DNA from: a virus
Reading direction: 5' to 3' (one strand)
IMG/VR virus record: IMGVR_UViG_3300048784_000146
Location: 1-32,761 of that record
DNA length: 32,761 nt
The notes beneath the pieces are model-generated. The model saw nothing but the letters and a program-made list of their open reading frames with translations, did not search any database and had not been told where the DNA came from. Numbering within the stretch: position 1 is the stretch's first letter; each line of letters opens with the position of its first letter. Both the position numbers and the translations under genes were made by a program. Shown here piece by piece: positions 5,726 through 23,950 of the stretch.

Positions 5726-5731
5726 GCGTCG

Positions 5732-8700: not shown

Positions 8701-9283
8701 CGCCACCGATAGCGTTACTCTCACGGACTCCGCTTCCCGCTCGTTTGGGCGTACCCGCACCGCCACGGACTCGGTATCGATCAGTGACTCAGCGCAGCGT
8801 ACGTCGCCTCGCACGCGCTCGTGTAGCGATTCAGTATCCGTGAGCGACTCCGTTACGCGGTCGCATCAACTCTTCGCCCGTACCTGCATCGACACGATTT
8901 CACTGTCCGATTCGGCCACTCACGCGTTCGTGCCCAACCGCACTTGTACCGACTCCATCGTGATCTCCGACGCGGCTCTTCGAACTTCGCCACGAACACG
9001 CTCTTGCGTGGACTCGGTATTCGTGGGCGACGTAGCGCAGCGCACGCAGCCATCCTTTACGCGGTCTTGCAACGACTCCATCCCGATCTCGGACGCGGGC
9101 ACGCTCATCTTCATCGTCGCCCCGGCGTGGCGTGATCTGAAGGTCGTGCATACTTGGGTCCAGTGGTCTGCGTACTCGTCGCTGGGCTGGGGAGCGGACG
9201 CCCAAGTGGGCTCACGTGTAGCGGCCAAACTGCAATCAGCGTGGTATGCTGGGGGCTTAAGCACATCATTGGGGACGAAATGA
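5732..9283 (+). CDS. Giant repeat protein with 54 tandem 20/21-residue repeats
   Basis: An 1183-residue protein: a 24-residue basic N-terminus, 54 tandem repeats (residues 25-1130), and a 53-residue tail containing WRDLKVVHTWVQW. The repeat consensus is R-T-x-T-D-S-I-S-I-S-D-x-A-S/T-R-S/T followed by 4 or 5 variable residues. The 54 units (28 of 20 residues and 26 of 21) account for every residue between the ends. The regular Arg/Asp columns and alternating Ile/Ser suggest a beta-solenoid or stacked fibre; one rung per repeat at about 4.8 angstroms would give a rod near 26 nm (inference). Position 3 is Cys in 16 repeats, crowded at the C-terminal end. It lies between the beta-domain gene and the terminase. 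No catalytic motif. Probably a fibre, whisker or spacer on the virion. Confidence 0.75.
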   Translation: MARFGRTQTQAVFRSIARKRQQLARTATDSISISDSASRSQALARTSTDSISVSDSTSRTTAFVGRTCTDSISISDTASRSATTRTRTCTDSISISDVASRTQSLVGRTGADSISITDSPARTFTYVRNCTDTISFSDVATRAAQAFVRSATDSIALTDSPTRSFTQIRTATDSISITDVATRSATSYSRTCTDSIALTDSASRAITQTRTASDNISISDTTTRAAQTIARTGTDSISIGDVAIRAPSLTRTCTDSISISDTANRSAQSFTRTATDSISVSDSASRAQSITRTATDSISISDVATRSAVTFTRTTTDSISISDSASRSFTRVRTTTDSITVSDATTRASITFTRTCTDSISISDNATGVYIPGSRTATDSISVSDSASRTQSITRTAIDGISISDVATRSAQAFTRTATDSISISDLASQVSPVFRTTTDSIPISDVVTRSAQSLARTTTDSITVSDSSARTQAFTRTTTDSISVSDVATRSSTSFTRTATDSISISDATTRSVQSLTRTTTDNISISDSASRAFTRTRTLTDSISVSDVATRTAQSFIRIASDVFSYSDIAYRAPYTPRTQTDSIPISDVASRASLSFNRTLTDSASLTDSASRAYALSRTATDSISISDVAARSTQLLLRTATDSISISDTASRTFTRVRTLTDSIALTDSASRTISQTRTATDSVALTDSASRTQSAFVRTCTDNVAISDSATRSFTRIRTTTDNISITDVASRAVFTFTRTATDSVAISDSASRTQTITRTCTDSITLTDSASRSFTRTRTTTDSISVSDVAARSSQTFTRTTTDSISISDSASRTFTRTRTTTDSISISDVATRGALLFARTTTDSISLTDSATGGGVRTRTATDSIAVSDVATRSAFTRTRTATDSITFSDTASRSFLESRTCSDSIIVSDSASRTSPRTRTCVDSVSITDSATRSSLAFTRTAVDSISISDTSSRNAARTRTCTDSVTVSDSANRSSLARTRTATDSVTLTDSASRSFGRTRTATDSVSISDSAQRTSPRTRSCSDSVSVSDSVTRSHQLFARTCIDTISLSDSATHAFVPNRTCTDSIVISDAALRTSPRTRSCVDSVFVGDVAQRTQPSFTRSCNDSIPISDAGTLIFIVAPAWRDLKVVHTWVQWSAYSSLGWGADAQVGSRVAAKLQSAWYAGGLSTSLGTK
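5804..9121 (+). repeat. Protein-level tandem repeat array, 54 units of 60 or 63 bp
   Basis: Each unit encodes R-T-x-T-D-S-I-S-I-S-D-x-A-S-R plus a variable end. Lengths alternate 20, 21, 20, 21 through units 5-16 and again through 37-43, so the true period is often 41 residues; 21-residue units tend to have Val after the second Asp and 20-residue units tend to have Ser. At DNA level the units are much less alike: the Ser codons at the same column switch between AGC/AGT and TCG/TCC/TCA. Confidence 0.9.
9242..9250 (+). promoter_or_regulatory. Candidate extended -10 promoter ahead of the terminase operon
   Basis: TGGTATGCT lies at 9242-9250 near the 3' end of the repeat-protein gene and fits TGnTAnnnT. 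A start about 7 bases downstream would give a leader of some 23 nt with the SD-like GGGGACGA before the ATG at 9280. No good -35 hexamer is visible. The spacing to the gene resembles the candidate at 1662-1670. Confidence 0.4.
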
Positions 9284-9612
9284 ATACCACATTGAAACTC
9301 CCGGCGCTCTCCACTGAGTATGTGTACTGCCAGGTGCAGGCCACCGACGTGGCTAACACGGGTAACCCATCCGGTAATCCTGTGCAGTTCGCTTTCATCA
9401 CTGATCTTCAAGCCAGCCCCACCGAGGCCACCGAGTGGTACTCGGGCTCTTGGGTGGAAGACGGTGGGCCCGTACTGTGGACGGCTCGTTGTTTAGTGGG
9501 GCCTAGTGGCGTGGTCACCTTCGAGCCGGGTACCACCTACGTGATTTGGGTACAGATTGCCGACTCACCTGAAACTCCGATCTTGCGTGCTGGGACCCTA
9601 ACCGTCGTATGA
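9280..9612 (+). CDS. Small beta-rich virion-associated protein
   Basis: A 110-residue protein. The ATG at 9280 overlaps the stop of the repeat protein (ATGA) and has GGGGACG upstream; a longer in-frame opening from 9154 lies inside the repeat gene and is not preferred. The sequence reads as a small beta-sandwich of Ig-like style: LKLPALSTEYVYCQVQA, NPVQFAFITD, WYSGSWVEDG, TTYVIWVQIADSP, ILRAGTLTVV. It sits where a small terminase subunit often lies but has no helix-turn-helix, so it is not called as one. It overlaps the terminase start by ATGA. Probably a structural or decoration component. Confidence 0.55.
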   Translation: MNTTLKLPALSTEYVYCQVQATDVANTGNPSGNPVQFAFITDLQASPTEATEWYSGSWVEDGGPVLWTARCLVGPSGVVTFEPGTTYVIWVQIADSPETPILRAGTLTVV

Positions 9613-11000
9613 CCACCGCACTCGCCTCCCCCTTCACTTTTGCTGCCGATCTCCTCGACCCACTGTTTACTGAGGAAGAGCGAGCGCGTGGATTGGAGAT
9701 TTGGCGCGAAGTACGCCGCCCTTCGCAGTGTGCGCCAACTGACCCCATCGACTGGTACCTGTGGCTCATCCTCGCCGGTCGTGGTTGGGGCAAGACTCGC
9801 ACCGGCGCTGAGTGGTTGCTCGATGAGATGACGGCCTTTCCTCACTATTGGTACGCAATGGTGGGTCCGACTACCGACGACATCCGCGACATCATGGTAG
9901 AAGGCGAATCAGGTTTGCTCGCCTGCGCCGATGCCCGCAAGATTCGTTACCACTGGAATAAGCAACTGGGGCATTTCAAGATTGTCGGTGGAGCGCGTGC
10001 GGACACCTTTACCGCTGAAAAACCGGATGGTGTGCGAGGGCCGAACCTCCGCGCTGCCTGGGGCGACGAGCCCGCGTCATGGCGTTACGGTCAAGAGGTT
10101 TGGGACACCCTACAGTTCGCCATGCGTAAAGGCAACGTACGCGTCTGCATGACCGGTACGCCGAAATCCACGCCCTTCATTCGCATGCTCATCCAGGCTG
10201 CGGACGTGATCACCAAGGGCCACTCGGACGAGAACCGCGCCAACCTCTCCGAGAAGTTCTACTCGCGTGTCATTAAGCCCTACGTGGGTACGCGTCTTGG
10301 TCGCCAGGAACTCGCCGCTGACATCCTGGACGACGTGGAGGGTGCGCTATGGACGCCCGCCACCATCGACGCCAATCGTGTACAGACGGTGCCCTCACAT
10401 CAGGAACTCGACGATGGTTTTTACGTGGACGTGGCCGATCTCATTGCGCTATTGATCTCGATGGACCCATCCGTATCGAACAACGAGAAGCGCAACGTCA
10501 ACTCTGGCAAGATTCAACGAGCCTCGGACGAAGTGGGCATCGTGGTCGCGGCTCTTGGGGAGAACGACCACGGTTACATGCTGGGCGATTTCTCCGGTCG
10601 CATGCCCTCTCATAAGTGGGCCAAGCGCGGGCTCGATCTCTACGACCAGTACGAAGCGGACCGCCTGATTGCGGAGGTCAATAACGGTGGTGATCTCGTT
10701 GAGAGTGCGATTCGCGCCGCGTGCAAGGAGTCCGGTCGCCCAATGCCGCTATACAACAAAGTACGGGCGGGCGGCAAACTCGGCTCAAAGGGTTCGCGTG
10801 CGGAGCCGGTGGCGCAACTCGATATTGACGGCTTGATTCACCACGTGGGTTACTTCCCCCTAATGGAGGACGAAATGACGACGTGGATTCCCAGGGCTAA
10901 GGGGCAGAAATCCCCGAACCGAATCGACGCCCGAGTGTACGCATTTAGTGAATTGATGTTGCGCAAGCAGGGACGAAAGTTAGGATACACGATTTCATGA
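9609..11000 (+). CDS. terL: Terminase large subunit (DNA packaging ATPase/nuclease)
   Basis: A 463-residue protein of the usual length for this family. The N-terminal ATPase has a Walker A loop AGRGWGKT at residues 56-63, a Walker B with acidic pair at WGDEP (Asp153, Glu154) and a coupling motif TGTPKS at 182-187. The C-terminal RNase H-like nuclease shows its acidic residues at ISMDPS (Asp286), AEVNNGG (Glu356) and NRIDA (Asp440). It cuts and pumps phage DNA into the procapsid through the portal encoded next. The ATG overlaps the previous stop, and its own stop overlaps the portal start (ATGA). No small terminase subunit was recognised beside it. Confidence 0.95.
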   Translation: MTTALASPFTFAADLLDPLFTEEERARGLEIWREVRRPSQCAPTDPIDWYLWLILAGRGWGKTRTGAEWLLDEMTAFPHYWYAMVGPTTDDIRDIMVEGESGLLACADARKIRYHWNKQLGHFKIVGGARADTFTAEKPDGVRGPNLRAAWGDEPASWRYGQEVWDTLQFAMRKGNVRVCMTGTPKSTPFIRMLIQAADVITKGHSDENRANLSEKFYSRVIKPYVGTRLGRQELAADILDDVEGALWTPATIDANRVQTVPSHQELDDGFYVDVADLIALLISMDPSVSNNEKRNVNSGKIQRASDEVGIVVAALGENDHGYMLGDFSGRMPSHKWAKRGLDLYDQYEADRLIAEVNNGGDLVESAIRAACKESGRPMPLYNKVRAGGKLGSKGSRAEPVAQLDIDGLIHHVGYFPLMEDEMTTWIPRAKGQKSPNRIDARVYAFSELMLRKQGRKLGYTIS

Positions 11001-13402
11001 GCGCACTAGACCGACTCCGAGCCGTGATCTCTGGCGAACAACGAGCGCTCAGCACTGCGCTCGAACGCCTTGACAATAACGGCGTGATTGAACGACGCGA
11101 CCCCCTGGGTGCGACGCAGACGATATCGCCTTACTCAACCATGAGCAAGACGATGGTAGCGGAATGGGACGCTGACCAGGCCATTAAACTCGCATACTAC
11201 GCCAACGTCTACGTCTACCGGTGCGTCTTTCAGTGCGCACAGGCGATTTCGGGTCTGCCGTTCCGAGTGGGTAAGGACCCCGAGAAGCCTGACGTATTCA
11301 GCACTGACGCACCGATGGCGGTATTACTATCACCCCCTCCCGGTGGACCGGCCCCCGGCGTATCGGCTCGCAAACTCTTCGCGTGGACGATTGCCCAGTA
11401 TCTGATCACGGGCAAGTACGCGTGGGAGATCGAATGCGAGGGCAAACGAGGTAAGGGGAAGATCGTCAACCTCTGGCCTCTCGTTTCGTGTGCTCTCTAC
11501 CCGGAGCCCACTAAAGGAGGCTCGGCTTATTTTGAAGGCTACGAATACGGCAAGCCTGGAGTAATGAACACGCAGATTAAACACTTCGTACCGGAACAAG
11601 TCTTTTACGGCTGGCGTCCTTCGCAGCACGACTACCGCCAACCGGAGAGTGCGTTAATGGCCGCACGGCTCAACATCTCGGTAGCCGTGATGCAGGACCG
11701 TTACGATTTCGCGTTCCTTCGCAACGACGCACGCCCCGCCGCCATCATCGTGCACGAGGCATTCTCGAGAACGGAAGAGCGCGACGCCTTCATGCGAGCC
11801 TTCCGTGGTGATTTTCGTGGACCCGATAACGCGGGCAAGGCGTTATTCGTACAGGCGACTGGTGAGGATGGCGCAGGCGTGCAGGGTGCGATGGACGTCA
11901 AGACCTTGGGGCTCAGCCAGCGGGATGGGCAGTTCATCGCTCGCTACGCGCAGAAGATCAATGACATCTGCGTGGCCTTGGGTACACCACTGTCCATCTT
12001 GGGCGATTCGACGAAGCGAACCTACGACGCGGCCAACGTCGAGCACCGCAACTGGTGGGAATCAACCCTACAGCCGTTGTGTTTCGAGATTGCGGACGAG
12101 ATCAACATGCAGATCGCCCCGCGAATGGGTAGTGAAGTAGGCTGGTTCGACTTCTCGCAGATCAAGGCGCTGCAATCGGATAGCCGCCTCCTGGCGCTGG
12201 GTCCGACCCTGCCACTTCTCGTGGGACCGGGTAAGCCCATCACGTACTCGGAGTTCCGCAACGAACTCGGGCTCACCGAGTTACGCCCCGCCGACGAGAA
12301 GAACGAGGAGATGGTCGCGACCTCCGCTGCTGCCCTAGCCGACAAAGCGGGCCCGCAGCCTCCCGCGCACTCGGCGCTGCCGCCCGATGGCACGCCCGAC
12401 AAGTCGCCCTCTGGCACGCAATTACACCCGCCCGTTAGTGGTCCCGGCTCAGGCTCAGCCACTGGCAAACTCGCACGCGAAGCGTTGGAGATCAGGGCCC
12501 GCAACAAGGAGACTCGCGCCATGCAGTGGCGCATGATTGACGCCACGGCTAAGGGACTAGAGCCCGTGTTCGAATCGACCATGAAGGCGCTGTTCGAGAA
12601 GCAAGCGGCCAGCGTATTCGCACGGTTGGGCGGTCGTCGAGGCAAGAGCCTTATGACGCGGGCCCCCGGCAAGGACGCTCTCGACGCGGCCAAGATCGCC
12701 TACATCGAGGAAGTGATGCGTAGCATCTTCGATAAGGAGTTCTGGAAGTTGGAGACTGCAGCGGCGATACGAGGCACCTACGGAGCGATTTCGGCTGCCG
12801 CCATCGCCGCCGCACGCCAGGACTTCCTCGAAGCCGTCGAAGCGGACGCCATGGACGACGTGTTCGACACTACCAACCCCTCGGTGGTCGATTTCATCAT
12901 GGCACGCGCCAATCAACTAGCGGGCCAGATCAGTGAAACCACGTACGATCAGATACAGGAGGCTCTGCGCGAAGGAGTAACGGCGGGCGACGACATCCCC
13001 GCCATAGCGGACCGCATTCAAGAGGTCTTCTCCGACGCTGATGATCTCCGCGCTACGACTATTGCGCGTACGGAGGTGATCTCCGCGTACAACGGCACCA
13101 CGGAGTTGCTCGGTACGTTGCTGCCTGATGACGTGGCCAACGGCAAGGCGTGGATAACTACGATGGACGGACGCGAACGCGACGCGCACGCCGATGCCGA
13201 TGAGCAACAGGTCGCTCTAGGTCAACCGTTCCAGGTGGGTGGCGAAGAGTTGCTTTACCCTGGCGACCCCTCGGGTTCGCCCGAGAACTGCATCAACTGC
13301 CGATGCGCCGTGAGTCTGCTTGCCCCGGAGGACTGGGATGGTGGACAGCAGCGTGCGGTGCAATTAGACCTGCGAGAGATTAGGGAAGGGCTGTGGCAGT
13401 AA
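10997..13402 (+). CDS. Portal protein fused to a MuF-type head domain
   Basis: An 801-residue protein, about twice the size of a typical HK97-type portal. Residues about 45-430 are portal: NVYVYRCVFQCAQAISGLPFR, GKYAWEIE, and the stretch DICVALGTPLSILGDS near 315-335. A Pro/Ser/Gly linker (about 445-490) follows. Residues about 600-790 are a MuF domain: TTIARTEVISAYN near 687, WITTMDGRERDAHADADEQ, and CINCRCAVSLL near 764. MuF proteins act at the head interior near the portal vertex; here one chain does both jobs. The start overlaps the terminase stop and the end overlaps the next gene by 10 bases. Fusions of portal and MuF exist in several actinophages, so this is real rather than an assembly fault: no stop or frame change separates the halves. 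Confidence 0.9.
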   Translation: MSALDRLRAVISGEQRALSTALERLDNNGVIERRDPLGATQTISPYSTMSKTMVAEWDADQAIKLAYYANVYVYRCVFQCAQAISGLPFRVGKDPEKPDVFSTDAPMAVLLSPPPGGPAPGVSARKLFAWTIAQYLITGKYAWEIECEGKRGKGKIVNLWPLVSCALYPEPTKGGSAYFEGYEYGKPGVMNTQIKHFVPEQVFYGWRPSQHDYRQPESALMAARLNISVAVMQDRYDFAFLRNDARPAAIIVHEAFSRTEERDAFMRAFRGDFRGPDNAGKALFVQATGEDGAGVQGAMDVKTLGLSQRDGQFIARYAQKINDICVALGTPLSILGDSTKRTYDAANVEHRNWWESTLQPLCFEIADEINMQIAPRMGSEVGWFDFSQIKALQSDSRLLALGPTLPLLVGPGKPITYSEFRNELGLTELRPADEKNEEMVATSAAALADKAGPQPPAHSALPPDGTPDKSPSGTQLHPPVSGPGSGSATGKLAREALEIRARNKETRAMQWRMIDATAKGLEPVFESTMKALFEKQAASVFARLGGRRGKSLMTRAPGKDALDAAKIAYIEEVMRSIFDKEFWKLETAAAIRGTYGAISAAAIAAARQDFLEAVEADAMDDVFDTTNPSVVDFIMARANQLAGQISETTYDQIQEALREGVTAGDDIPAIADRIQEVFSDADDLRATTIARTEVISAYNGTTELLGTLLPDDVANGKAWITTMDGRERDAHADADEQQVALGQPFQVGGEELLYPGDPSGSPENCINCRCAVSLLAPEDWDGGQQRAVQLDLREIREGLWQ

Positions 13403-14604
13403 GGTGGTCAGCGCTACTAATTGAAGAGCGCGATGACGATGATCTGCTGGATGAGCCATTCTTAGTACGTACCTCCAAGCGCCAGTACAATCCTGACGAA
13501 CCCCGCGATGAAAAAGGTGAATGGACCTCGGGCGCTGGCGCTCCTGGCGATGCTAAAGTAGAGGCCGACAAGGAAGGTGTCTGGCGAGGCAAGGATACCG
13601 AACTCAAATACGTCAACTACACTGGTGCCACTGGCAACAAAGATCACATCACTCGTACGGAAATGGGAACCATCCCACTCGCCGCTGTCACGCACTTAAA
13701 AGGTGTCATGGGCGAAGACCCGAAGGAGCACTACCAGAAACTATCGGGTGATGCCGAAGTAGGAAAAAAGCACTGGGACGAGTTCGTGCAAGACATTAAA
13801 GAGAACGGCATCAAAACTCCGATCTTCATTACCGTAGAACACGGACCCGGTAAAGAGCCGATGATCAGCGAAGGCAACCACCGCATGGAGGCCGCACGCG
13901 TGCTTGGACTGAAGACGGTGCCCGTGGAGATTCGATATTTCGGCCACGCTGAGGACCAAGGCACTGTCGCTGCGCGTGCAGGAATCGAACAGATAAAGAC
14001 GAGTAGTACCAGCACGAGCACTCTACCCGAAGGTGCGCACGACTTCATACAAAAACAGGTGAATGACTTCTACAAGGCGGGAGGTTCGATTAAGATATTA
14101 GGTAAAACGCTCAGTACGCCTGATCTCGTAGCAGCGCAAGACAACTTCAAAGAGCACTCCGATATCCTAATGGATCGAATAGACTACGCCCAAAGCGGCG
14201 GGGGTCCATTGGGTAATACTGACGGTACGGTTCTTGATCGAATGAGTATGGGTATCTCCTTTATGCAATTGGCTTTAGTGGACGATGCTATGCCATCGGT
14301 GGCTGTGGCGTATGACGCTGAGGGCAACGTAGCGGGTGCGATGTCGTTTAGTGTTTATACACCCTCGGGTACGGGACCAGTGCACATCGGATACTTGGGG
14401 TCAATGGGCACCACCCCTGGCACGGGTACTGCATTACAGGTGGCTGTGGCAAAAGTGGCAGCCACTGCGGAAAAGGACATCTCCAGTACAGCAACCGATC
14501 AAGCACTGTCTTATCACAGTTTGATTGGGCGAACGCTGGATGAGACTAATCACTCGTCATGGACCAAGGAGCAGGTGGCCGAAGTGGCCTCCTTGTCGCC
14601 GTGA
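13393..14604 (+). CDS. ParB/sulfiredoxin-like domain fused to a GNAT-like domain, putative head-carried effector
   Basis: A 403-residue protein with a GTG start overlapping the portal gene by 10 bases. Residues 32-44 are YNPDEPRDEKGEW, a motif also present twice in the next gene. Residues about 130-185 resemble the ParB/Srx fold: DIKENGIKTPIFITV, then SEGNHRMEAARVLGLKTVPVEI with the G-x-H-R-x-x-A-A signature (Gly161, His163, Arg164). Members of this fold include nucleases, ATP- or CTP-binding proteins and toxin modules. Residues about 295-360 look like an acetyltransferase core: VAVAYDAEGNVAGAMSF, then YLGSMGTTPGTGTALQ, the acetyl-CoA pyrophosphate loop. Between portal and protease one expects head-assembly factors; an enzyme here suggests packaging into the capsid. 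Activity is inference; the fold matches are by motif only. Confidence 0.65.
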   Translation: MAVRWSALLIEERDDDDLLDEPFLVRTSKRQYNPDEPRDEKGEWTSGAGAPGDAKVEADKEGVWRGKDTELKYVNYTGATGNKDHITRTEMGTIPLAAVTHLKGVMGEDPKEHYQKLSGDAEVGKKHWDEFVQDIKENGIKTPIFITVEHGPGKEPMISEGNHRMEAARVLGLKTVPVEIRYFGHAEDQGTVAARAGIEQIKTSSTSTSTLPEGAHDFIQKQVNDFYKAGGSIKILGKTLSTPDLVAAQDNFKEHSDILMDRIDYAQSGGGPLGNTDGTVLDRMSMGISFMQLALVDDAMPSVAVAYDAEGNVAGAMSFSVYTPSGTGPVHIGYLGSMGTTPGTGTALQVAVAKVAATAEKDISSTATDQALSYHSLIGRTLDETNHSSWTKEQVAEVASLSP

Positions 14605-14628: not shown

Positions 14629-17124
14629 ATGATGACTGACTACGACCCCGACGAAGTGTTCCCCTTCTGGCAGACGCCCGAGGGGAAAGCAATATTGAGT
14701 ACTAAACTGGACAAAGACGATAGGAGTGCTATGACCACCGAACATCGCGTGATGAAGTTCGAAGTGTTAGAGATGCGAGAGCCTGAGAACGGCATGCCCG
14801 CTTGGGGCTGGTTTCGCGTCAACAACTACAAGGCAACTGACACCTACGGCACTCGATTCGCTCAGGGCGGTTGCAAGGAGTACATGGACGCCTTTCCCAA
14901 TCGCCCCACTTTGCTGTTCGGCCACGGCATGCAGGGCGGCATCGATGCCGTACTCGGTCATCGCGTGGACTGGAAGGAGTCGCCGCAGGGGCTCGACATC
15001 AAGTTCGAGTTCGACGACTTCGATGCGGTGCCTCGCGCTAAGCAGGCATTTACACAGTTGCGTTCGCGTTCCCTCGATTCGTTTAGCGTGGGCTTTATCC
15101 GTGAGAAGGACCAACGCTCAGACGACAACGAATTCACCCTGATCTCGAAGTATCAACTACCGGAGGTAAGTATCGTGATCGAAGCCAGCAACCCTGGAAC
15201 GGGCGTCCTGCAATTGTCGGGTACGCGCAGCGACCAGGCCGACGCCATAGCCGATGTGATGTCGCGCCTTCATGCCGATCAACTCACCGTTGAGGAGGCC
15301 AATACTGAGATGCGTACCATCCTGGCTCGCGCCGATGACGCCAAAATGAAGGACTGCGCCACCTGTGGCGGTACGGGCAAGATTCATGACGGTAACATGG
15401 ACTGCCCCGATTGCGATGGCACCGGTAAAGTCGAGATGCGCGACGCACGCGTTGATCTCTACATCCCGCGCACCATCTGGCGACACCTAGCGGACGAAAT
15501 CCGTGGTGGGCTCGTTGAATATCGCGGCAAGTACACCGCCCAGCAATTGCGCGAACTCTTGAAGAAGGGTCACGCCATGAAGAACGAGAAGGGCGAACCG
15601 TCTTTTCCGATTGACGACGAGGAAGACCTCGATCACGCCATCATGGCTGTGGGGCTTGGCAACAAGAATGGCGACGCAATTCGCCACTTCATCATAGGTC
15701 GTGCGAAAGAGATGTCCCTCACGAGCAAGATTCCACCCACCTGGGCCGATGATGGTTCGCTTAAATCCCGCGATGCCGAAGAGGACGCCGAGACTCGCGA
15801 ACTGCTTGCCGATCTCGAAAGCCGTGGTACCTACCCAAAAGTTGACGGTTCGGGCAACCGGACCTACAACCCGGATGAGCCCCGCGATGACGCTGGCAAG
15901 TGGTCAGCCGGTGGGGGTGGCGGTTCGACCAGCAAGAAGGACCCCGGCAACGGAAAGACTTACCAACACGCTAGTGGCTCACTCAAAGGAGAGCACCCAC
16001 GCGATACGCTGCAAAAGGCTGGTTTCGTAAAGGTAAGCCAAGTTGATCACGACGCCCAGGGCACAAAATCCGACCCCGGCTATCGTCCCAGCACAGTGGA
16101 ACACTTCGTGCACCCAGCCAGTGGTGCCAAGGTAGACGTGATCACGACCTCGAATGGTGCAATCCACGTTGAATCCCCCGTATTCCGTGGTGCGGTAAAG
16201 TTGGGCGCAGTGAGTATGTCGGGTAGCGACGAAACCCCGCCATTCGATACTAAAGAACCCGTTAACGTGGACACCATGAAGGACGTGGCCATTAACTCAA
16301 TCCAGAATCCCAAGGGTTTCTACCCTGGAGCGGAGAACGACCGCACGTTTAAGGATGAACCCACGTTGACCGATGTGGCGAAAGAAGCAGCCAAACTCAG
16401 TAGCGGCAAATACGTGCAGACCGATAAGGGTGGCACCATCCACAAATCCGACGCGGCTGCACAAATGTACGGAGTTGGAAGCAAAGAACACGACGCTGCG
16501 ATAGCGAAGTTCGGTCCCGGTGACGCCACGGACAGAACTCCACCTAAGCCCACTTCCTTCACCACTGAGAATGGGAATAAGATCGAACCCGCCGATATTG
16601 CTGATCAGGCGAGCCGCACCAGTGACCACCTCGATGACGAGATCAACAAGGACTCCGCGCAGAGGTTAGCGGATGAACACGAGGACTTGGCCAATCAGCA
16701 CTATCAAATGTCGGAAGCCGCCAAGGGTTTGGGGCGCAATAAGGAAGCGGACGCCCACATGGACGCGGGCGACCACCACATGGACGCCGCCGATCAGTGG
16801 GAGGGCGTAGCCCACGCGCAAGAACAAGACAGCGATGAACAGCCCGACGCGTCTGAAATGGACGAGATGATCGAGGAAGCCAAAACTCAATCCGCTACTG
16901 CCATTGGCGCAAGCAAGGGAGCAGCCCCCGGCTATCGGCGTTCCATTGACATCGACCCGGAGACACGTGAGATTTTAAAAGAACTGCGCTATAGCCCCGA
17001 TCAGCCGCGTGATGAGAAGGGCAAGTGGACTATCGTGGACGGCGAATCCGTCTTCGTTCCCGAAGAGGATTTCAAACACATGCCGGTGGGTTCGCCCGAG
17101 GGCGTGCTAGGCTTAACCCAGTAG
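14629..17124 (+). CDS. Prohead maturation protease with long multi-domain C-terminal extension
   Basis: An 831-residue protein. Residues about 38-190 are an HK97-type (S78) prohead protease: TRFAQGGCKEYMDAFPNRP, LLFGHGM with His99, and RSLDSFSVGF with Ser153 as probable nucleophile. A zinc knuckle pair of DnaJ type follows (CATCGGTG at 243-250, CPDCDGTG at 259-266). Residues 310-372 are a helical module often attached to phage head proteins (FPIDDEEDLDHAIMAVG, RHFIIGRAKEM, IPPTW). The motif YNPDEPRDDAGKW is at 413-425 and YSPDQPRDEKGKW at 788-800, with about 360 unrecognised residues between them ending in a His/Asp/Glu-rich helix (660-730). Ordinary proteases of this type are about 200 residues. 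Starts at 14629, 14632 and 14731 (with AGGAG) are all possible; the last would drop 34 residues and keep the protease intact. Confidence 0.85.
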   Translation: MMTDYDPDEVFPFWQTPEGKAILSTKLDKDDRSAMTTEHRVMKFEVLEMREPENGMPAWGWFRVNNYKATDTYGTRFAQGGCKEYMDAFPNRPTLLFGHGMQGGIDAVLGHRVDWKESPQGLDIKFEFDDFDAVPRAKQAFTQLRSRSLDSFSVGFIREKDQRSDDNEFTLISKYQLPEVSIVIEASNPGTGVLQLSGTRSDQADAIADVMSRLHADQLTVEEANTEMRTILARADDAKMKDCATCGGTGKIHDGNMDCPDCDGTGKVEMRDARVDLYIPRTIWRHLADEIRGGLVEYRGKYTAQQLRELLKKGHAMKNEKGEPSFPIDDEEDLDHAIMAVGLGNKNGDAIRHFIIGRAKEMSLTSKIPPTWADDGSLKSRDAEEDAETRELLADLESRGTYPKVDGSGNRTYNPDEPRDDAGKWSAGGGGGSTSKKDPGNGKTYQHASGSLKGEHPRDTLQKAGFVKVSQVDHDAQGTKSDPGYRPSTVEHFVHPASGAKVDVITTSNGAIHVESPVFRGAVKLGAVSMSGSDETPPFDTKEPVNVDTMKDVAINSIQNPKGFYPGAENDRTFKDEPTLTDVAKEAAKLSSGKYVQTDKGGTIHKSDAAAQMYGVGSKEHDAAIAKFGPGDATDRTPPKPTSFTTENGNKIEPADIADQASRTSDHLDDEINKDSAQRLADEHEDLANQHYQMSEAAKGLGRNKEADAHMDAGDHHMDAADQWEGVAHAQEQDSDEQPDASEMDEMIEEAKTQSATAIGASKGAAPGYRRSIDIDPETREILKELRYSPDQPRDEKGKWTIVDGESVFVPEEDFKHMPVGSPEGVLGLTQ

Positions 17125-17160: not shown

Positions 17161-17613
17161 ATGGCATACGATACCGCAAACGAGCGGGGTCCGTGGGCAT
17201 CCGGGACCGCTTACGCATTGTACGACGTAGTTGAATACGAAGGCTACAAGTACGAGTGCATCAATGCGTCAGGTTCCACCGGCAACGACCCGGCTGGTGA
17301 CACGGCGAACACGTACTGGCTAATCATCGGCGCTGAAGGCACGACCCCCGACCCCACCGGCCACGGCGTGGTCACGGTCAACGAGGCGACGTACCAAGCC
17401 GCAGTGGGCGATTTCATTCTCGCCGCGACCAACACGACCATTACGGTCCCTGCGCCCACACCCGGTGGTTTCTTCGATGTCGCCAGCATTGGTGCGTCGA
17501 TCACCGCCACGGTCAGTGGTGCAGTGATCAACGGTGGCGTGTCCACCACGGTCACCACGCAGTACACTCGGAAGCACTTTGTTTCTGACGGTCTGGCCTG
17601 GTTCGCCTTCTAG
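17161..17613 (+). CDS. Putative capsid decoration protein with chitin-binding-like (CBM5/12) module
   Basis: A 150-residue protein with a strong SD (AAGGAG) before the ATG. Residues about 11-55 match the small CBM5/12 fold: PWASGTAYALYDVVEYEG then YKYECINAS, a proline near 44 and YWLIIG at 52-57; the conserved Trp12, Tyr18, Gly28, Tyr31 and Trp53 are all present. The rest is beta-type sequence (VTVNEATYQAAVGDFILAA, TTTVTTQYTRKHFVSD). The place between protease and major capsid genes is the usual one for head decoration or scaffold proteins. A carbohydrate-binding module on the capsid would let virions stick to glycans such as chitin or mucus; that is inference. A strong hairpin follows the stop. 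Confidence 0.65.
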   Translation: MAYDTANERGPWASGTAYALYDVVEYEGYKYECINASGSTGNDPAGDTANTYWLIIGAEGTTPDPTGHGVVTVNEATYQAAVGDFILAATNTTITVPAPTPGGFFDVASIGASITATVSGAVINGGVSTTVTTQYTRKHFVSDGLAWFAF

Positions 17614-17638: not shown

Positions 17639-17680
17639 CAACTCGGGCGTGCGCCAGTCGTGGGGCGCACGCCCGAGTTG
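17639..17680 (+). terminator. Strong hairpin terminator
   Basis: A perfect 17-bp stem (17639-17655 with 17664-17680, core CTCGGGCGTGCGCC) closes an 8-base loop. There is no run of T after it, as in many actinobacterial terminators. It sits directly between the decoration gene and the promoter at 17683. Confidence 0.65.
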
Positions 17681-17682
17681 TA

Positions 17683-17691
17683 TGTTAGTAT
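17683..17691 (+). promoter_or_regulatory. Extended -10 promoter giving a leaderless mRNA for the sugar cassette
   Basis: TGTTAGTAT at 17683-17691 fits TGnTAnnnT and ends exactly 6 bases before ATG 17698, placing +1 on the ATG. There is no SD. The -35 region is occupied by the terminator hairpin, so recognition would depend on the extended -10. Confidence 0.55.
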
Positions 17692-17697: not shown

Positions 17698-18009
17698 ATG
17701 GACATCACGATAACCGTAAAACTCGAGTGCGAGATGGAAGTCCTGCGCGATAGCGAGGCCCGCATCAGATTCGCCGCCTTCTGCAAGAATCGCATCCTGC
17801 AGGAATGCGCCTTGCGTGATCTCCCCTACGAGCCCTGGAACTTGCGAATCACGCAGACGACACGCGACCCCGAAGGCCCCGGCGTCACCATGCAGCCCGT
17901 CCTACTCGAATACGTGATATCGGAGGCCCAAGCCATCGAGGCTCAAACTCTTATGCAATACACCCGCACGAAGGCCGGTATCCCACCCCTGCAATACCCC
18001 ACCGATTGA
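17698..18009 (+). CDS. Hypothetical protein, first gene of the sugar cassette
   Basis: A 103-residue acidic protein starting MDITITVKLECEMEVLRDS. No SD precedes the ATG, but an extended -10 box ends 6 bases upstream, so it is probably translated from a leaderless message. It has a beta strand start, a helix with FAAFCKNRILQECALRD, a stretch TRDPEGPGVTMQPVLLEYVI and an amphipathic C-terminus. No known domain is recognised. Its stop overlaps the glycosyltransferase start (TGATG), so the two are translationally coupled. Confidence 0.6.
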   Translation: MDITITVKLECEMEVLRDSEARIRFAAFCKNRILQECALRDLPYEPWNLRITQTTRDPEGPGVTMQPVLLEYVISEAQAIEAQTLMQYTRTKAGIPPLQYPTD

Positions 18010-19064
18010 TGCGCGTCCTCGTCGTCAACGCTGATCAGGGCGGCTGTGGTTTCTACCGCATGATTGCCCCCGCGATGGCCGTCGCTCGCAATACTGACAT
18101 TGACGTGGTACTTGACCCAGGCGGTGCCGCTATCGAGGTTGGCTACGTCGATGGTCACGTACGGAGCGTGGGCCCTCTCGATTTCGATCTCGTCGTGTTC
18201 CAACGCCCCGTCGATCAGCACATCGCGGAAACGATAACGCTGATCAGACGCCAGGGTGTGGCTGTCTGCATCGAACTCGACGACGATTTCTGGCACATCG
18301 ACCGCCAAAACATCGCGTACGAGTCTTTTCACGAACCACGCCGCAACGTCAAGTACCTGGAGAGGGCGTGCCGTGAAGCGGACTTGGTGACCGTATCGAC
18401 GCCCGCTCTGCTCTCGGTCGTCCCTACGTCCACGATTCGCGTCCTACCCAACTTCGTCCCCCAGGAGTACCTGACACTGGAAGTAAATCCCGAAGCGCCG
18501 TGGGCGATGTTCGAGGACCGCGTGATTGTGGGCTGGACGGGCAACCCCGCCACTCACCCCGGTGATCTCGAAACGACGCAGCGTGCAGTGGTGCACGCCG
18601 TACGACAGACGGATAGCGTCTTCTTCGCCGTGGGCTCAGTCGAGACTGGCCGCATCTTAGGATTCGACCCCGAAGAATCAGCCTACTGCCCACCCGTCGT
18701 GCTAGAGAAATACCCCTGCACCGTGAAGGGGTTAGACGTTGGTATCGTACCCCTGCGGCTAACGCAGTTTAACGAGGCCAAGTCGTGGTTGAAGGGCTTA
18801 GAGTACGCCGCACTTGGGGTGCCGTTCATCGCATCGCCCACGGGCGAGTATCTGCGGCTCTTCAAGAAAGGCGCGGGCCTGATTGCCAAGAATCCCGCCG
18901 AATGGCAACGCCGTTTGGCATCGTTACTCGCTAACGAGCCCTATCGCGAGGAGGTGGCGCGGCGCGGATTCGAAGCGGTGAGCGAAATGACTTACGAGAA
19001 GAACGCGCATCGCTGGGCCGACGCGTGGACTAAAGCAGTGGATAACTACAAAAAGGGGCATTAA
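18009..19064 (+). CDS. Glycosyltransferase, GT4-like (GT-B fold)
   Basis: A 351-residue protein of normal length for a single GT-B enzyme. The N-terminal domain opens with MRVLVVNADQGGCGFYRM, a Rossmann strand with glycine-rich turn and the 'G.YR' phrase common in this group, and ELDDDFWHID at 89-98. The C-terminal donor-binding domain starts at VIVGWTGNPATHPGD (172-186) and holds LDVGIVPLRLTQFNEAKSW (242-260) and LEYAALGVPFIAS (264-276), where a nucleotide-sugar is usually held. It transfers a sugar to an unknown acceptor. A TTG three bases upstream is possible but ATG at the TGATG overlap is preferred. Set between head genes, it may glycosylate virion proteins, though modification of host surface or DNA cannot be excluded. 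Confidence 0.82.
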   Translation: MRVLVVNADQGGCGFYRMIAPAMAVARNTDIDVVLDPGGAAIEVGYVDGHVRSVGPLDFDLVVFQRPVDQHIAETITLIRRQGVAVCIELDDDFWHIDRQNIAYESFHEPRRNVKYLERACREADLVTVSTPALLSVVPTSTIRVLPNFVPQEYLTLEVNPEAPWAMFEDRVIVGWTGNPATHPGDLETTQRAVVHAVRQTDSVFFAVGSVETGRILGFDPEESAYCPPVVLEKYPCTVKGLDVGIVPLRLTQFNEAKSWLKGLEYAALGVPFIASPTGEYLRLFKKGAGLIAKNPAEWQRRLASLLANEPYREEVARRGFEAVSEMTYEKNAHRWADAWTKAVDNYKKGH

Positions 19065-19513
19065 TGCGCGTCATGACCATCGGTACTTTCGACGTCTTCC
19101 ACGAGGGGCATCGTGATCTGTTGAAACGATGCCAGGAATTGGCGAAGCACGTTATCATTGGCGTAAACAGCGATGCGTTCGTATGTCACTATAAGGGCGA
19201 ATTCCCGGTGGTCCCGCAGGAGTCACGTATGGCGAGTGTGGCCGCTTATGGGAAGGTCGTCATACATGACCCTAGTTTGGATTCTCACGGTAACCCCGAT
19301 ACTGGGGAATGGATTCTTGAAACCTTTGATCACGTCTTGACGGGTGCGGGCTCAAAGGTTCTAGTCATTGGTTCGGACTGGGCACGCCGCGACTACCTGG
19401 CGCAACTCAACATCACGCAGGACTTCCTCGACGAGGAGAACATCTCCTTGATGTACGCCCGTCGCCCGCTCGATGGGCCCAAGAGCAGAGAACTGCGACG
19501 TACGCATGAATGA
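19064..19513 (+). CDS. Cytidylyltransferase-like nucleotidyltransferase (TagD family)
   Basis: A 149-residue protein with GTFDVFHEGH at residues 7-16, the H-x-G-H nucleotide-binding signature of the glycerol-3-phosphate/phosphocholine cytidylyltransferase superfamily (His13, His16). GVNSDAFVCHYKGEFPVV and VIGSDWARRDYL match the substrate and middle motifs, and GPKSRELRR stands near the usual C-terminal S-x-x-I-x-R site in altered form. It would join CTP to a small phosphorylated alcohol or sugar. The ATG overlaps the stop of the glycosyltransferase by one base. Together with the two neighbours it could make and transfer a CDP-activated group. Substrate is unknown. Confidence 0.82.
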   Translation: MRVMTIGTFDVFHEGHRDLLKRCQELAKHVIIGVNSDAFVCHYKGEFPVVPQESRMASVAAYGKVVIHDPSLDSHGNPDTGEWILETFDHVLTGAGSKVLVIGSDWARRDYLAQLNITQDFLDEENISLMYARRPLDGPKSRELRRTHE

Positions 19514-20054
19514 CCTAATCGTGATCTCGACCTGGCACGGTCGAGAGGAGTGGGCGCGGGAGTGTTCGGAGTCGATTGAGCGTGATCACATCGTAGTGAC
19601 CACGGATGGCTTCGAACTCGGAGTATTAAAGTGGTGCTTCGATCACACCAGCGCCGAGCGTGTAGTTCTTCTGCAGGACACGAACGTAATCATCGATAAC
19701 CTGATCTTCGACCTGATCGACAACACTGAGGGTTCGATCTGTCTTAACCACAACGAGCGCCACTATGGCTGCTACACCGGGGTCTATGAGCGCCAAGGTG
19801 CCGAGGCACTGAGACTCCCTGCCGTACACAACAAGGCCGAATCCATCGAGCAAGAAACCGCGTGGAACGAAGCATACGCCGGGTGGGCCCTGGATTGCTC
19901 GCAACTGACCTGTTGGGGTGAGATCACGAACCCCTACCGGTGGGTCGAGGTGTGGCACCATCGGCGCTGGAACGTGGTTTACTCGACCCGTTTCCTGACC
20001 AAGTGGCAGTCGCAGTGGGGGCAAACCCCCCTCGAAGACCTCCGGGGTCCGTAG
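19506..20054 (+). CDS. Putative glycosyltransferase-like protein
   Basis: A 182-residue protein. The ATG at 19506 overlaps the previous stop by 8 bases. It begins MNDLIVISTWHGREEWARECSESI, like the first strand and helix of a GT-A (family 2-like) enzyme, then HIVVTTDGFELGVLKWCFDH and VVLLQDTNVII near residues 54-64, which stand where a D-x-D-type metal motif is expected but read Q-D-T-N. A later stretch is Trp/His-rich (YAGWALDCSQLTCWGEI, RWVEVWHHRRWNVVY). It is short for a full GT2 enzyme. Context with the previous two genes supports a role in glycan transfer. Could also be a non-catalytic relative. Confidence 0.55.
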   Translation: MNDLIVISTWHGREEWARECSESIERDHIVVTTDGFELGVLKWCFDHTSAERVVLLQDTNVIIDNLIFDLIDNTEGSICLNHNERHYGCYTGVYERQGAEALRLPAVHNKAESIEQETAWNEAYAGWALDCSQLTCWGEITNPYRWVEVWHHRRWNVVYSTRFLTKWQSQWGQTPLEDLRGP

Positions 20055-20259: not shown

Positions 20260-21579
20260 ATGCCAGAAACACTAAGCCCGGAGGCCGAGCGCACCGCCGA
20301 ACTCCGGACTTCGCTAATGGAACTTGGGGGCCGCATCCACGAGTTGCGCTCCAAGCCCAAGGAAGCGCGATCTGAGAACTGGTCGAACGAACTGCGTGAA
20401 GACGCCCACCTGCTGTACGCTCTCGACGCGGAGTTGCGCGTAGCCGAGCGGGCCGAGGTGGACACGTGGAATCTCGCCGCGTTGCAGATTCGCCAGTTGG
20501 CCGGTAACCGTCAGGGCGCAGGCCCCGAGGGCACCGAGATCAACCTCAGTCGGCGCGGTGAGTCCCGTTCCATCGGCCAACAGGTCGTGGAGAATGAGGA
20601 CTTCGTAGCGTGGTCCAAGCGCTCCAAGGGTTCAGGCACCTCCCCCGACATCGAGGTGCGTGCACCGACGATTATCGCGGGCGACCCGTTCCTGATCGGT
20701 GAAGGCACCTACCTCGACCCCAACGGCTCAGCCGGTCTGTGGGTCCCGCGTGGTACGCCGTACCTGCCGTCTTCGGCCATTGACCAGCGCCGCCTCTTCA
20801 TGCGCGACTTGCTCGCGACTGGTGAAACGACGCTGCAGGCCATCCCCTACATTCGTGAAGACAACCCGCGAGTGTACGAAGAAGGCGCGACCTCGGTTGC
20901 TGAAGGTACACCGAAGCCCGAAGTCTCGATTCTGTTCACGCAGGCGCTCGCGCCCGTGCGCAAGATCGGCGCGTGGGTCCCGGTCACGACCGAAATCTTG
21001 GAAGACGCACCTACTCTGCAGTCCTACATCAACAGCCGCCTCGGCTACATGATTAAGGTCCGCGAAGAGGAGCAGTTGCTCAACGGTTCCGGTAATGGTG
21101 CGGACATCCAGGGCATCATCAACGTTCCCGGCATTCAGACGCAATCCACGGTGAACTCCGAATTCCCAGCCACCATCGGCGCAGGCATCGGACTCATTGA
21201 GGATGTGGATGGTGACGCGGATGGCGTAGCGATGAACCCCATCGACTTCTGGACCATGGTGACCACTCGCCACACGTCCTGGCTCGACGCTGGACTCGGT
21301 GTTGCGGCCAGCGTGGGCTCAGGTCTGCCCTACGGTGCAGTGCCTCAGTCGATCTGGGGTTTGCCCTGCGTGCGCAGTCGTTCAATGGCTCTCGGTCAGG
21401 CACTCGTTGGTGCCTACAAGACCGGGGCGCAGTTGTTCGACCGCACGGCGGCGAGCATTCGAGTTGGCGATCAGCACGCTGACTACTTCACGAACAACAA
21501 GGTGGCGGTCCTGATCGAAGAGCGTTTCGCGCTCGCGGTCTACCGACCCGACTGGTTCGTGCTTTGCACGGTGCCGTAA
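20260..21579 (+). CDS. Major capsid protein, HK97 fold
   Basis: A 439-residue protein with a strong SD (AGGAGAAACGAAA before ATG). Residues about 1-80 are a charged helical, coiled-coil-like delta domain that acts as internal scaffold (EAERTAELRTSLMELGGRIHELR). The body matches HK97-type capsid proteins: the linker region near 130-170 (DPFLIGEGTYLDP), AIPYIREDNPRVYEEGATSVAEG, PVRKIGAWVPVTTEILEDA, then RVREEEQLLNGSG-like KVREEEQLLNGSGNG near 268-281, and RFALAVYRPDWFVL at the C-terminus. The protease encoded upstream probably trims the delta domain. A hairpin terminator follows 44 bases after the stop. Confidence 0.92.
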   Translation: MPETLSPEAERTAELRTSLMELGGRIHELRSKPKEARSENWSNELREDAHLLYALDAELRVAERAEVDTWNLAALQIRQLAGNRQGAGPEGTEINLSRRGESRSIGQQVVENEDFVAWSKRSKGSGTSPDIEVRAPTIIAGDPFLIGEGTYLDPNGSAGLWVPRGTPYLPSSAIDQRRLFMRDLLATGETTLQAIPYIREDNPRVYEEGATSVAEGTPKPEVSILFTQALAPVRKIGAWVPVTTEILEDAPTLQSYINSRLGYMIKVREEEQLLNGSGNGADIQGIINVPGIQTQSTVNSEFPATIGAGIGLIEDVDGDADGVAMNPIDFWTMVTTRHTSWLDAGLGVAASVGSGLPYGAVPQSIWGLPCVRSRSMALGQALVGAYKTGAQLFDRTAASIRVGDQHADYFTNNKVAVLIEERFALAVYRPDWFVLCTVP

Positions 21580-21674: not shown

Positions 21675-22370
21675 TTAAAAGGGCGATTCTGCGAGCGCGT
21701 CTTCCATTGCGCTCTTGACCTCCTCCTCCCATGATGATTCGCGGTCGTTCTTCTCGTTGAACTCCTCCTCTTTCTCCGATACGAACTCGGCTTGCTTCAT
21801 GAGGATGAACTGTGCCTGGTCTTCGATCGAGTCGAATTCCGAGAGCGCGTACTCCTCGTCATGCTCGATGGATTCGAGGAACTCGTCGATGGCGGGCTGC
21901 TCATCGAACGGCGTGTCGTCGAAGTCCTCAATGGAGTCGAGGCAGTCACGCACGGTGGACGCCCAATCCTCAGCCGCTTCGGCCTGCGCACGCTGCTCCT
22001 CGGAAGCAGAAGTCTCGTGACCGAAACCCTCCTCCATCGAATCAGCGCTCTCCTCGTACATCGACTGCACCTCCTCGATGGAATCGGCCAGCGACTCCAT
22101 GATCTCCTTCGCCTCGTCGAGCGTAAACCCCGACTGCAGCGCACTGATCGCCTGCTCAGCCTGGTCCACCGCTTCGTAGATGGTGGACAACTTGGGGTTG
22201 TTCGTCATTTCGGACGACTTGAATGTGCGGCACGTGGTGTGCAACACTCGACGCCCGCCGTAGCGGAACTTAATCCATCGGTAGCCCTGTCCGGGCTCGA
22301 TTACCTGGTGACACTCCAGGCATCGCTCGCGGGTCTGCTTGACTGCAGCCTTAACGGTGGTGATTCGCAT
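21675..22370 (-). CDS. Zinc-finger protein with long acidic tail
   Basis: A 231-residue protein, last of three minus-strand genes. Residues 17-47 form a C-x2-C...H-x2-C site (Cys17, Cys20, His44, Cys47) within RCLECHQVIEPGQGY and LHTTCRTF, a treble-clef-like finger common in phage proteins. The other 180 residues are helical and strongly acidic (runs of Glu/Asp such as DCLDSIEDFDDTPFDEQ and SEKEEEFNEKNDRE), which could mimic nucleic acid or bind a basic partner. The ATG overlaps the preceding stop (TAATG) with AAGGAGA upstream. Role unknown; a DNA-mimic or host-takeover protein is speculation. Confidence 0.7.
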   Translation of the reverse strand: MRITTVKAAVKQTRERCLECHQVIEPGQGYRWIKFRYGGRRVLHTTCRTFKSSEMTNNPKLSTIYEAVDQAEQAISALQSGFTLDEAKEIMESLADSIEEVQSMYEESADSMEEGFGHETSASEEQRAQAEAAEDWASTVRDCLDSIEDFDDTPFDEQPAIDEFLESIEHDEEYALSEFDSIEDQAQFILMKQAEFVSEKEEEFNEKNDRESSWEEEVKSAMEDALAESPF

Positions 22371-23227
22371 TACTTGATCTCCTTAATTGAAGCCTTGGTG
22401 GGGCGCTTGTAAAAACCGAATGATTCATCATCGCTACTGCGTTGGACCTCGGCGCTGAATCGCACGATGTCGCCGCGTTCGGCGTCATCCAGGCTGCGCG
22501 GTAGGCTACCCCATACTTTGAACTCGCCGCACGGGGTGGTAACCAGCACGAGCATCTTAGTCACAAACGAGTTGTAGCCGTAGCCTTCCACAGTCTTGAA
22601 GGTAAGAATGCGACCTTCGATGTCCACGCGTCCAACGGGGCAAGCGACCTTGGGTACAGGTACGACTTCCTCACGCTCAGCGTCACGCACTACAGCCTTG
22701 CAGATCGCGTCGAACTGGCGGTCCGAGAGCGAGCCGTACTGGCGACCCTTGCGCAGGACATCCTGCACGAACGAGTTGGTGCTCGTTATTAGCGCGTCCC
22801 AATCGGCGGGGTGATCAGCCTTGTATGCGTTCCACGCCTCCAACTTCTTGGCCTCCTTACGTGCCGCCACCATGCGACCATGCATGGCCTTGAATTCAGC
22901 GGTGCTGTAGGTGAAGCGGCCATCAGCGCACTGCTCGCCTATGGCCAGGTGATCGCCCGTGGGCAGGTGCTTGACCACGACCACGTAACGGATACGATTA
23001 CCGCAGTGATCGCATTGATCGCCGTTGTGGTAGCGCGTGGTGGTACTGGCCGATACCAGGGTGAGCAACTGAAGCATCCTCATGTACTCGGGGTTGACAA
23101 CATCCGTCGAGCGCCCTTCGTCATCGAGCAGAAACTGCGGAGTGCCGCTGTAGTAGTAGCCGACAGCGTAATAATCCTCAGGGACGAACTCAGCCGGTCG
23201 GTGCTGGTCGGTGCGGGTGGCCGTCAT
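22370..23227 (-). CDS. Zinc-finger plus OB-fold-like phage protein
   Basis: A 285-residue protein. Residues about 70-105 hold a zinc site (Cys72, Cys75, His87 or His93, Cys100 in QCDHCGNRIRYVVVVKH and IGEQCADGRF). A helical stretch follows (110-190). Residues about 195-285 look like an OB fold: VDIEGRILTFKTVE, KMLVLVTTPCGEFKVWG, ERGDIVRFSAEVQ, FYKRPTKASI. Proteins with this layout are frequent in actinophages and usually lie in the nucleic-acid part of the genome; single-strand DNA binding is a reasonable but unproven role. It is coupled to both neighbours by TAATG overlaps and has a SD (GGAGG) upstream. Confidence 0.7.
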   Translation of the reverse strand: MTATRTDQHRPAEFVPEDYYAVGYYYSGTPQFLLDDEGRSTDVVNPEYMRMLQLLTLVSASTTTRYHNGDQCDHCGNRIRYVVVVKHLPTGDHLAIGEQCADGRFTYSTAEFKAMHGRMVAARKEAKKLEAWNAYKADHPADWDALITSTNSFVQDVLRKGRQYGSLSDRQFDAICKAVVRDAEREEVVPVPKVACPVGRVDIEGRILTFKTVEGYGYNSFVTKMLVLVTTPCGEFKVWGSLPRSLDDAERGDIVRFSAEVQRSSDDESFGFYKRPTKASIKEIK

Positions 23228-23586
23228 TACTTGGCCTCCAGTTCACGAGGCTCAACGACGTAACCATCAAAGGTCTTGCTGTTGTCACGCAGCAGCAGGT
23301 CCGGGTTCGCATCGAACGCGGCCTGCAACGATGCACCCGCTTGGTTGAGTGCCTTCTGCATAACCGCGTGCTGGTAAGCCGACAACTTCTCGGGGCACGT
23401 TTCCTTGGCCTCAGTGACGAGTGCCCTGCGGTACTCGCTCAGCAACTCGGTCACGTTGTCCAGGTTCGCAATCAGGACAACCGTATCCAAGCGCTCCGGG
23501 TATTCGGCACACGTGTCCATCAGTTTGGTCATTGAACGCACCTTGCGGTGCACCTTCAACTTCCTAGTCTTTGATACCCTACTCAT
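23227..23586 (-). CDS. Hypothetical helical protein, first gene of the minus-strand operon
   Basis: A 119-residue protein with a basic N-terminus (SRVSKTRKLKVHRKVR) and a helical body (LIANLDNVTELLSEYRRALVTEAKE, LSAYQHAVMQKALNQAGASLQAAFDANPDLLLRDN). The ATG at 23586 stands 11 bases after AAAGG; a GTG at 23595 would add three residues but is only 2 bases from that SD. It lies about 42 bases downstream of the predicted start of the TTGACA promoter. No known domain. The basic head suggests nucleic-acid contact. Confidence 0.6.
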   Translation of the reverse strand: MSRVSKTRKLKVHRKVRSMTKLMDTCAEYPERLDTVVLIANLDNVTELLSEYRRALVTEAKETCPEKLSAYQHAVMQKALNQAGASLQAAFDANPDLLLRDNSKTFDGYVVEPRELEAK

Positions 23587-23634
23587 CTTGTCCACTGCCT
23601 TTCGTCGAGCCGACCTATTCGGCCCGTCCCCCGA

Positions 23635-23663
23635 AGTCTACTACCCCCTTGTCCCACTGTCAA
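23635..23663 (-). promoter_or_regulatory. Canonical -35/-10 promoter for the minus-strand operon
   Basis: On the minus strand, TTGACA (23658-23663) is followed by exactly 17 bases and TAGACT (23635-23640). This is the best sigma-70-type promoter seen in the window. It fires towards the three-gene minus block and lies back to back with the plus-strand promoter at 23690. Confidence 0.8.
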
Positions 23664-23689
23664 GTACCCTCAGAGCCCGCCTGAAGCGC

Positions 23690-23698
23690 TGGTAGAAT
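23690..23698 (+). promoter_or_regulatory. Extended -10 promoter giving a leaderless mRNA for head-tail genes
   Basis: TGGTAGAAT at 23690-23698 fits TGnTAnnnT and ends exactly 6 bases before ATG 23705. No SD is present and no -35 box is visible. It restarts plus-strand transcription after the capsid terminator and the inverted block. Confidence 0.6.
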
Positions 23699-23704
23699 GG
23701 CCTC

Positions 23705-23950
23705 ATGACCCTACTCGGAAATACCGATATCAGTTCCGAGATCACCTCACTCCAAGCCATCGCTACCAGCCTTGAAACCATCCTGCAAGGAGCGCACGTG
23801 GTCACGGACCCCGGCCAAGCAGCCGAGTTTGGGCAGGCCACCATCCTGCTGGGTGATCTGGCAAACCTGGCCACAGCCAAGATGGTGGTAAGCGCCACCG
23901 ACCCGGAACTACCGCCAACCTATGGGCCCAACGGTGTGGAGATCACGTGA
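23705..23950 (+). CDS. Small hypothetical head-region protein
   Basis: An 81-residue protein (MTLLGNTDISSEITSLQ) with a mostly helical, Ala/Leu-rich body (EFGQATILLGDLANLATAKMVV) and a Pro-rich end. It has no SD and is probably read from a leaderless message. It is the first gene after the minus-strand block and is coupled to the next one by GTGA overlap. It may be a head or connector accessory protein by position alone. Confidence 0.6.
   Translation: MTLLGNTDISSEITSLQAIATSLETILQGAHVVTDPGQAAEFGQATILLGDLANLATAKMVVSATDPELPPTYGPNGVEIT

Follow-up and report, generated by a model that had tools for sequence, protein, structure and literature searches.

The 32.8-kb record of an uncultured virus analysed here (32,761 nt, referred to at its full length as the window) carries a siphovirus structural block in which four overlapping ORFs (17698-20054), built around a GT4-type glycosyltransferase, lie as a single unit between the prohead protease and capsid genes. 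We put at about 70% the probability that this cassette serves to glycosylate virion proteins of the phage itself while particles assemble. The observations that carry this reading are gene order, membership of the GT4 and nucleotidyltransferase families, conservation of the slot in related phages, co-divergence of the GT4 with the capsid, and exchangeability of the accessory genes. A handful of mycobacteriophages are reported to have glycosylated virions, which protects their particles against antibodies (PMC12363180). If our reading is true, with a head-linked GT4 present in many uncultured lineages, the modification would be commoner and would have a recognisable genetic signature, and new protein-glycosylating enzymes would be indicated.

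A sugar-gene cassette between the protease and capsid genes

The structural block runs from terminase (9609-11000) and portal (10997-13402) through a prohead serine protease (Peptidase_S78) fusion (14629-17124, + strand; PF04586, 1.8e-5) and an HK97-type major capsid protein (20260-21579, + strand; PF05065 (Phage_capsid), 3.9e-30) to neck and tail genes 3′ of the capsid gene, with the protease and capsid genes forming the left and right borders of a conserved slot. The cassette within it, all on the + strand, comprises a 103-aa conserved orphan (17698-18009), the GT4-type (GT-B) glycosyltransferase that is its conserved core (18009-19064), a cytidylyltransferase-fold nucleotidyltransferase (19064-19513) and a 182-aa orphan (19506-20054), joined by overlaps of TGATG (18007-18011), TAATG (19062-19066) and 8 nt (19506-19513). 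The GT4 ORF has an ATG at 18009, the TTG listed as its start being at 18006. An earlier note on this DNA had described a three-gene sugar cassette ahead of the capsid gene; the overlapping unit and its position are real, and the small ORF at 17698-18009, missed in that description, makes it a unit of four genes. A nucleotide-level search of 50,697 phage records found no relatives of the cassette, and a defence role was rejected, PADLOC giving no match.

Between the protease gene and the cassette sits the gene of a 150-aa, S/T-rich, CBM5/12-like protein (17161-17613, + strand; PF02839, 4.5e-6), with homologues at the equivalent place in two related phages, L005 and L008; its Thr-rich product could be a virion or head decoration protein, a glycan acceptor or a glycan binder. 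A perfect 17-bp hairpin (17639-17680, no strand assigned; MFE -41 kcal/mol, z -5.2), with the CBM5/12-like gene on one side and the cassette on the other, is likely a terminator isolating the cassette from the upstream gene; its T-rich tail is on the - strand, and termination on the + strand is presumed. The earlier note had also given the cassette its own leaderless promoter. A candidate -10 element, TAGTAT (17686-17691, + strand), indeed ends 6 nt upstream of the cassette's first ATG (17698), where a Shine-Dalgarno is absent, and TANNNT stands 5 nt (L005) and 7 nt (L008) upstream of the orthologous starts, against a background in the window of 8 in 368 ATGs (2.2%). A sigma-70 scan called no promoter before 17698, and we regard a leaderless start under the cassette's own promoter as plausible. 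Late expression is not assured, because such a promoter is possible.

Other features of the block include a ParB-like gene (13393-14604) that separates the portal gene from that of the protease. The protein with the protease domain (14629-17124) also carries, further along, a DnaJ-type CxxCxGxG zinc motif (PF00684, below cut-off). A block of minus-strand genes (21675-23898) lies between the capsid and neck genes; a Pfam search of this block gave no match, and one of its genes is kept in L008 (43%).

The glycosyltransferase is conserved in the slot and co-diverges with the capsid

That the central gene encodes a GT4-like transferase, as first proposed from the letters and their translations, is upheld by a score of 31.2 bits against PF13524 (Pfam cut-off 25; 2.5e-7), a match to the PHROG glycosyltransferase phrog_7162 (3e-40) and a match of the family profile to the GT4 structures 3c4q and 3c48, 'predicted glycosyltransferases' (E 0.001). 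K258, S259 and E265 are invariant across 13 head-linked copies, E265 standing at the second Glu of a candidate EX7E-type donor-binding motif in the C-terminal domain, in which the first Glu varies.

The same GT4 occupies the protease-capsid slot of L005, L008, L049, L054, L068, L069, L079 and L099. Of these, L049, L054, L068, L069 and L079 came from searches with the GT4, so they add no independent support for linkage. Among nine lineages reached by capsid-seeded scans that made no use of the GT4, six have it in the slot (L005, L008, L099, L142, L143/145/146 and L144), and L142-L146, which were added by the capsid-only scan, hold the GT4 alone. The other three (L149/L007, L147 and L148/L150) had no GT4 in the record; the L147 contig starts within the capsid gene, and L148/L150 is distant (36%). 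This brings the lineages with the same GT4 in the slot to 11, six of them from GT-independent scans. In L099, L144 and L145 the start of the GT4 and the stop of the protease overlap. Identities of GT4 and capsid across 13 loci were correlated (r = 0.75), with a value as high in 1 of 20000 permutations, and a quick GT4 tree placed the window, L005, L008 and L049 together with a support of 100.

Profile searches with the GT4 returned 80 viral and 38 cellular loci. Head linkage of the entire family was considered and rejected, as most other members adjoin GT2, methyltransferase, WhiB or DUF932 genes; that the family outside the window's capsid lineage is mostly found beside GT2, WhiB and DUF932, and seldom beside head genes, counts against virion glycosylation. 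The WhiB genes beside other viral loci point to actinobacteria as hosts of the wider family.

The genes that accompany the GT4 vary. The slot of L008, whose capsid is 64% identical, holds the small ORF, GT4, nucleotidyltransferase and 182-aa protein; in L005, where capsid identity is 75%, the cassette is interleaved with a methyltransferase gene and with another gene, of 211 aa. By tblastn and Pfam, the nucleotidyltransferase and 182-aa protein form a module shared by the window, L005 and L008, and a PF13578 methyltransferase with an unassigned 211-213-aa family forms another in L005 and L049. An unassigned GT-like gene, methyltransferase and NAD-epimerase occur in L069 and L099 (the last two also in L079), and PhyH with a methyltransferase in L054. 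Identifiable cargo of the slot is nearly all sugar-related (methyltransferase, epimerase/dehydratase, PhyH, nucleotidyltransferase), and the accessory genes are exchangeable sugar modules. The 211-213-aa family (L005:7168-7803, L049:7727-8368), in the same slot and alongside the methyltransferase, has HTKGV and FFGGNWWW motifs and a distant relative in Synechococcus phage S-SRM01.

The nucleotidyltransferase and the two orphans

The third cassette gene scores 45.4 bits against PF01467 (cut-off 21; 1.2e-11), which places it in the cytidylyltransferase-like superfamily. Its HxGH motif reads HEGH in the window and L005 and HSSH in L008, its GSDW motif is similar to the GDDW/GHDW of TagD, and the best PDB matches of the family profile are ethanolamine-phosphate cytidylyltransferase (4e-15) and TagD (8e-12). 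The earlier note had called this protein a TagD-like cytidylyltransferase supplying a CDP-activated group. Superfamily membership and the HxGH motif uphold a cytidylyltransferase-like protein; all NCBIfam equivalogs fell far under cut-off for the window protein, with 31.5 against a required 165.4 bits for TIGR01518 (TagD), and single-sequence scores ranked heptose-1-phosphate adenylyltransferase above TagD. An ISTT-type motif is expected at the C-terminus in the cytidylyltransferase family; it has the form ISST in L005 and SST in L008, and the window copy shows a degenerate version. With equivalog scores far below cut-off, this motif degenerate and NCBIfam favouring another enzyme, 'CDP-activated' is only a guess; 'TagD-like' is likewise a guess made at the level of the family.

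The 182-aa orphan (19506-20054) has homologues of 45-47% identity in L005 and L008. Neither this protein nor the nucleotidyltransferase found a relative when used as a single query in viral scans, and a scan with the 182-aa family profile recovered L008 and L005 again and nothing further. It had been described as a GT-A-like protein, a fold for which we find no family, profile or structure support: Pfam, PHROG, NCBIfam and PDB gave no match, hhalign against two other cassette families gave nothing, and the AlphaFold model from three sequences reached a pLDDT of 44, its PDB matches being set aside. After the second predicted core strand the sequence has 'LQD', with no clear DxD. By tblastn the 182-aa family was found in no locus lacking the nucleotidyltransferase, whereas L070 and Atuin have the latter without the former. 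This co-occurrence suggests that the 182-aa protein draws on the activated group that the nucleotidyltransferase makes. The pair is a candidate for an undescribed donor and transferase. The 103-aa orphan, with homologues of 33-36% identity immediately 5′ of the GT in L005, L008 and L049, matched nothing in the Pfam, PHROG or NCBIfam libraries, and its AlphaFold model (pLDDT 83) matched no PDB or viral fold significantly.

Flagellin-linked cellular relatives

A flagellin homologue lies within 6 kb of the GT4 in 29 of the 38 cellular loci, in many at less than 400 nt; FliS and a sigma-28-like gene are frequent neighbours, and several arrangements occur. These flagellin-adjacent loci belong to Geodermatophilaceae and form one clade, separate from the phage copies in the quick tree, so they represent one evolutionary association. 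L013:4862-10331 and 28 other cellular loci are the closest cellular homologues, beside flagellin, FliS and the sigma-28-like gene. We consider the Geodermatophilaceae enzymes candidate flagellin glycosyltransferases, and their neighbourhood, as a single association, hints at a protein acceptor; as support for our reading the link amounts to one clade in one bacterial family on a quick tree.

Probable virion glycosylation and its alternatives

Virion glycosylation, which the earlier note had proposed with CDP activation and two transferases, is the best-supported reading of the cassette on slot conservation, capsid co-divergence, the flagellin-linked relatives and the parallel with cluster O mycobacteriophages; the CDP group stays a guess, and the second transferase is unsupported. 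The GT4 would draw a sugar from the nucleotide-sugar pool of the host and attach it to Ser/Thr residues of a head protein, or possibly of a tail protein. Another activated group, in the form of a phosphate donor of sugar, alditol or amino-alcohol type, would come from the nucleotidyltransferase, and the 182-aa orphan might, at a guess, add it. In this scheme we infer the protein acceptor, the virion target, late action, the roles of both orphans and the nature of the donor. Mycobacteriophage virion glycans are reported at C-termini (PMC12619734); the window capsid protein and the tail-tube protein encoded at 26205 have no Ser/Thr-rich C-terminus, which counts against our reading. More tentatively, and with odds somewhat against it, the protease-capsid gap might be a dedicated glycan-diversification locus, in which a fixed, capsid-glycosylating GT4 and exchangeable modules alter the coat on the particle surface and lead to different glycans on related capsids; the GT4 would then attach the first sugar, and the nucleotidyltransferase and a new transferase family represented by the 182-aa protein would add a phosphate-linked group.

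The acceptors might instead be tail fibre or receptor-binding proteins, a sub-case that overlaps in confidence with the main explanation, both being virion glycosylation. The earlier note had pointed to the Thr/Ser-rich proteins at 1701-9283, and their richness is real (20-39% Ser+Thr, compared with about 9-20% for most other window proteins); the flagellin-linked relatives also favour a protein acceptor. Nothing ties these proteins to the cassette, however, and the conserved physical and evolutionary link is to the protease and capsid genes, with none found to fibre genes; fibre acceptors seem unlikely. One of these genes (5732-9283), upstream of terminase, encodes 1183 aa with 39% Ser+Thr and nine stretches matching phrog_12240, a family with no assigned function. 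A neutral slot, a landing site for cargo whose position has no functional meaning, would agree with the variable accessory genes, the absence of cargo in L149, and the hairpin and possible promoter bounding the cassette, but it sits poorly with the same GT4 in 11 lineages (six found independently of it) diverging as the capsid does, and with cargo that is nearly all sugar-related; we give it little credence.

Enzymes acting beyond the virion are also improbable. Were the cassette to act on the envelope of the host, be it on teichoic acid, glycolipid or glycan, as a superinfection block or an aid to release, a TagD-like nucleotidyltransferase would fit alditol-phosphate polymers and an own promoter could be accommodated, and phage GT genes for serotype conversion exist, as PMC12619734 mentions. 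Yet none of the four cassette proteins matches a membrane-anchor or lipid-carrier family, and a GT4 fixed beside capsid genes and co-diverging with the capsid is not what one would expect of an accessory gene aimed at the host. DNA-decorating GTs of phages are known (cited in PMC12619734), and glycosylation of phage DNA against restriction would be a further role; a thymidylate synthase/dCMP-hydroxymethylase (PF00303) homologue is found in 0 of 10 related records, all of them fragments, the cassette sits in the structural operon, and the methyltransferase, PhyH and epimerase modules speak against this role too, which we hold to be very improbable indeed.

Comparison with known systems

The closest parallel in arrangement is with cluster O mycobacteriophages (Corndog, Catdawg and Firecracker; compared here through the Firecracker and Catdawg records), which like the window have sugar-transfer genes in the head operon near the protease and capsid genes. 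Their O-methyltransferase and three transferases lie between portal and protease (PMC4351075), and PMC11600133 reports capsid and tail tube to be the targets of these enzymes; the cluster O cassette occupies the portal-protease gap and has no nucleotidyltransferase, whereas that of the window occupies the protease-capsid gap. Glycosylated virion proteins have been identified in Che8, Corndog and Myrna, according to PMC12363180. Che8 (cluster F) likewise encodes its own transferases, gp108-110, and its capsid glycosylation is reported to require gp110 (PMC12363180). Their genes lie at the extreme right of the genome, unlike the head-linked GT4 of the window.

Recognisable homologues are found in Arthrobacter phage Atuin, whose gp165 (GT) and gp171 (nucleotidyl transferase), at 40% and 34-35% identity, share one region with two more transferases and a UDP-glucose dehydrogenase; Atuin differs in being a 194-kb phage with this region amid non-structural genes (HNH, Mre11, RNA ligase, RecA). 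The flagellin-adjacent GT4 of Geodermatophilaceae belongs to the same family at about 32-37% identity and also lies beside the gene of a self-assembling protein polymer, but is cellular and falls in a separate clade. TagD and ethanolamine-phosphate cytidylyltransferase share with the window enzyme the nucleotidyltransferase fold and the HxGH and GxDW motifs; in contrast to TagD, the window enzyme is below the equivalog cut-off, has a degenerate ISTT-type motif and belongs to a cassette without a CDP-glycerol polymerase.

BLAST of the window GT4 against Che8 gp108-110 and the Firecracker and Catdawg GTs gave no similarity at E 0.01, and the likeness to cluster O lies in gene arrangement and presumed role rather than in ancestry, because the GT4 is not recognisably related. 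Head linkage and joint inheritance of a GT gene, as seen in virion-glycosylation systems (the Che8 GTs lie elsewhere), are both present here, and the cassette, judged by its genes and their order, appears to resemble the known phage virion-glycosylation arrangement in a new variant, built on a GT4 unrelated by BLAST.
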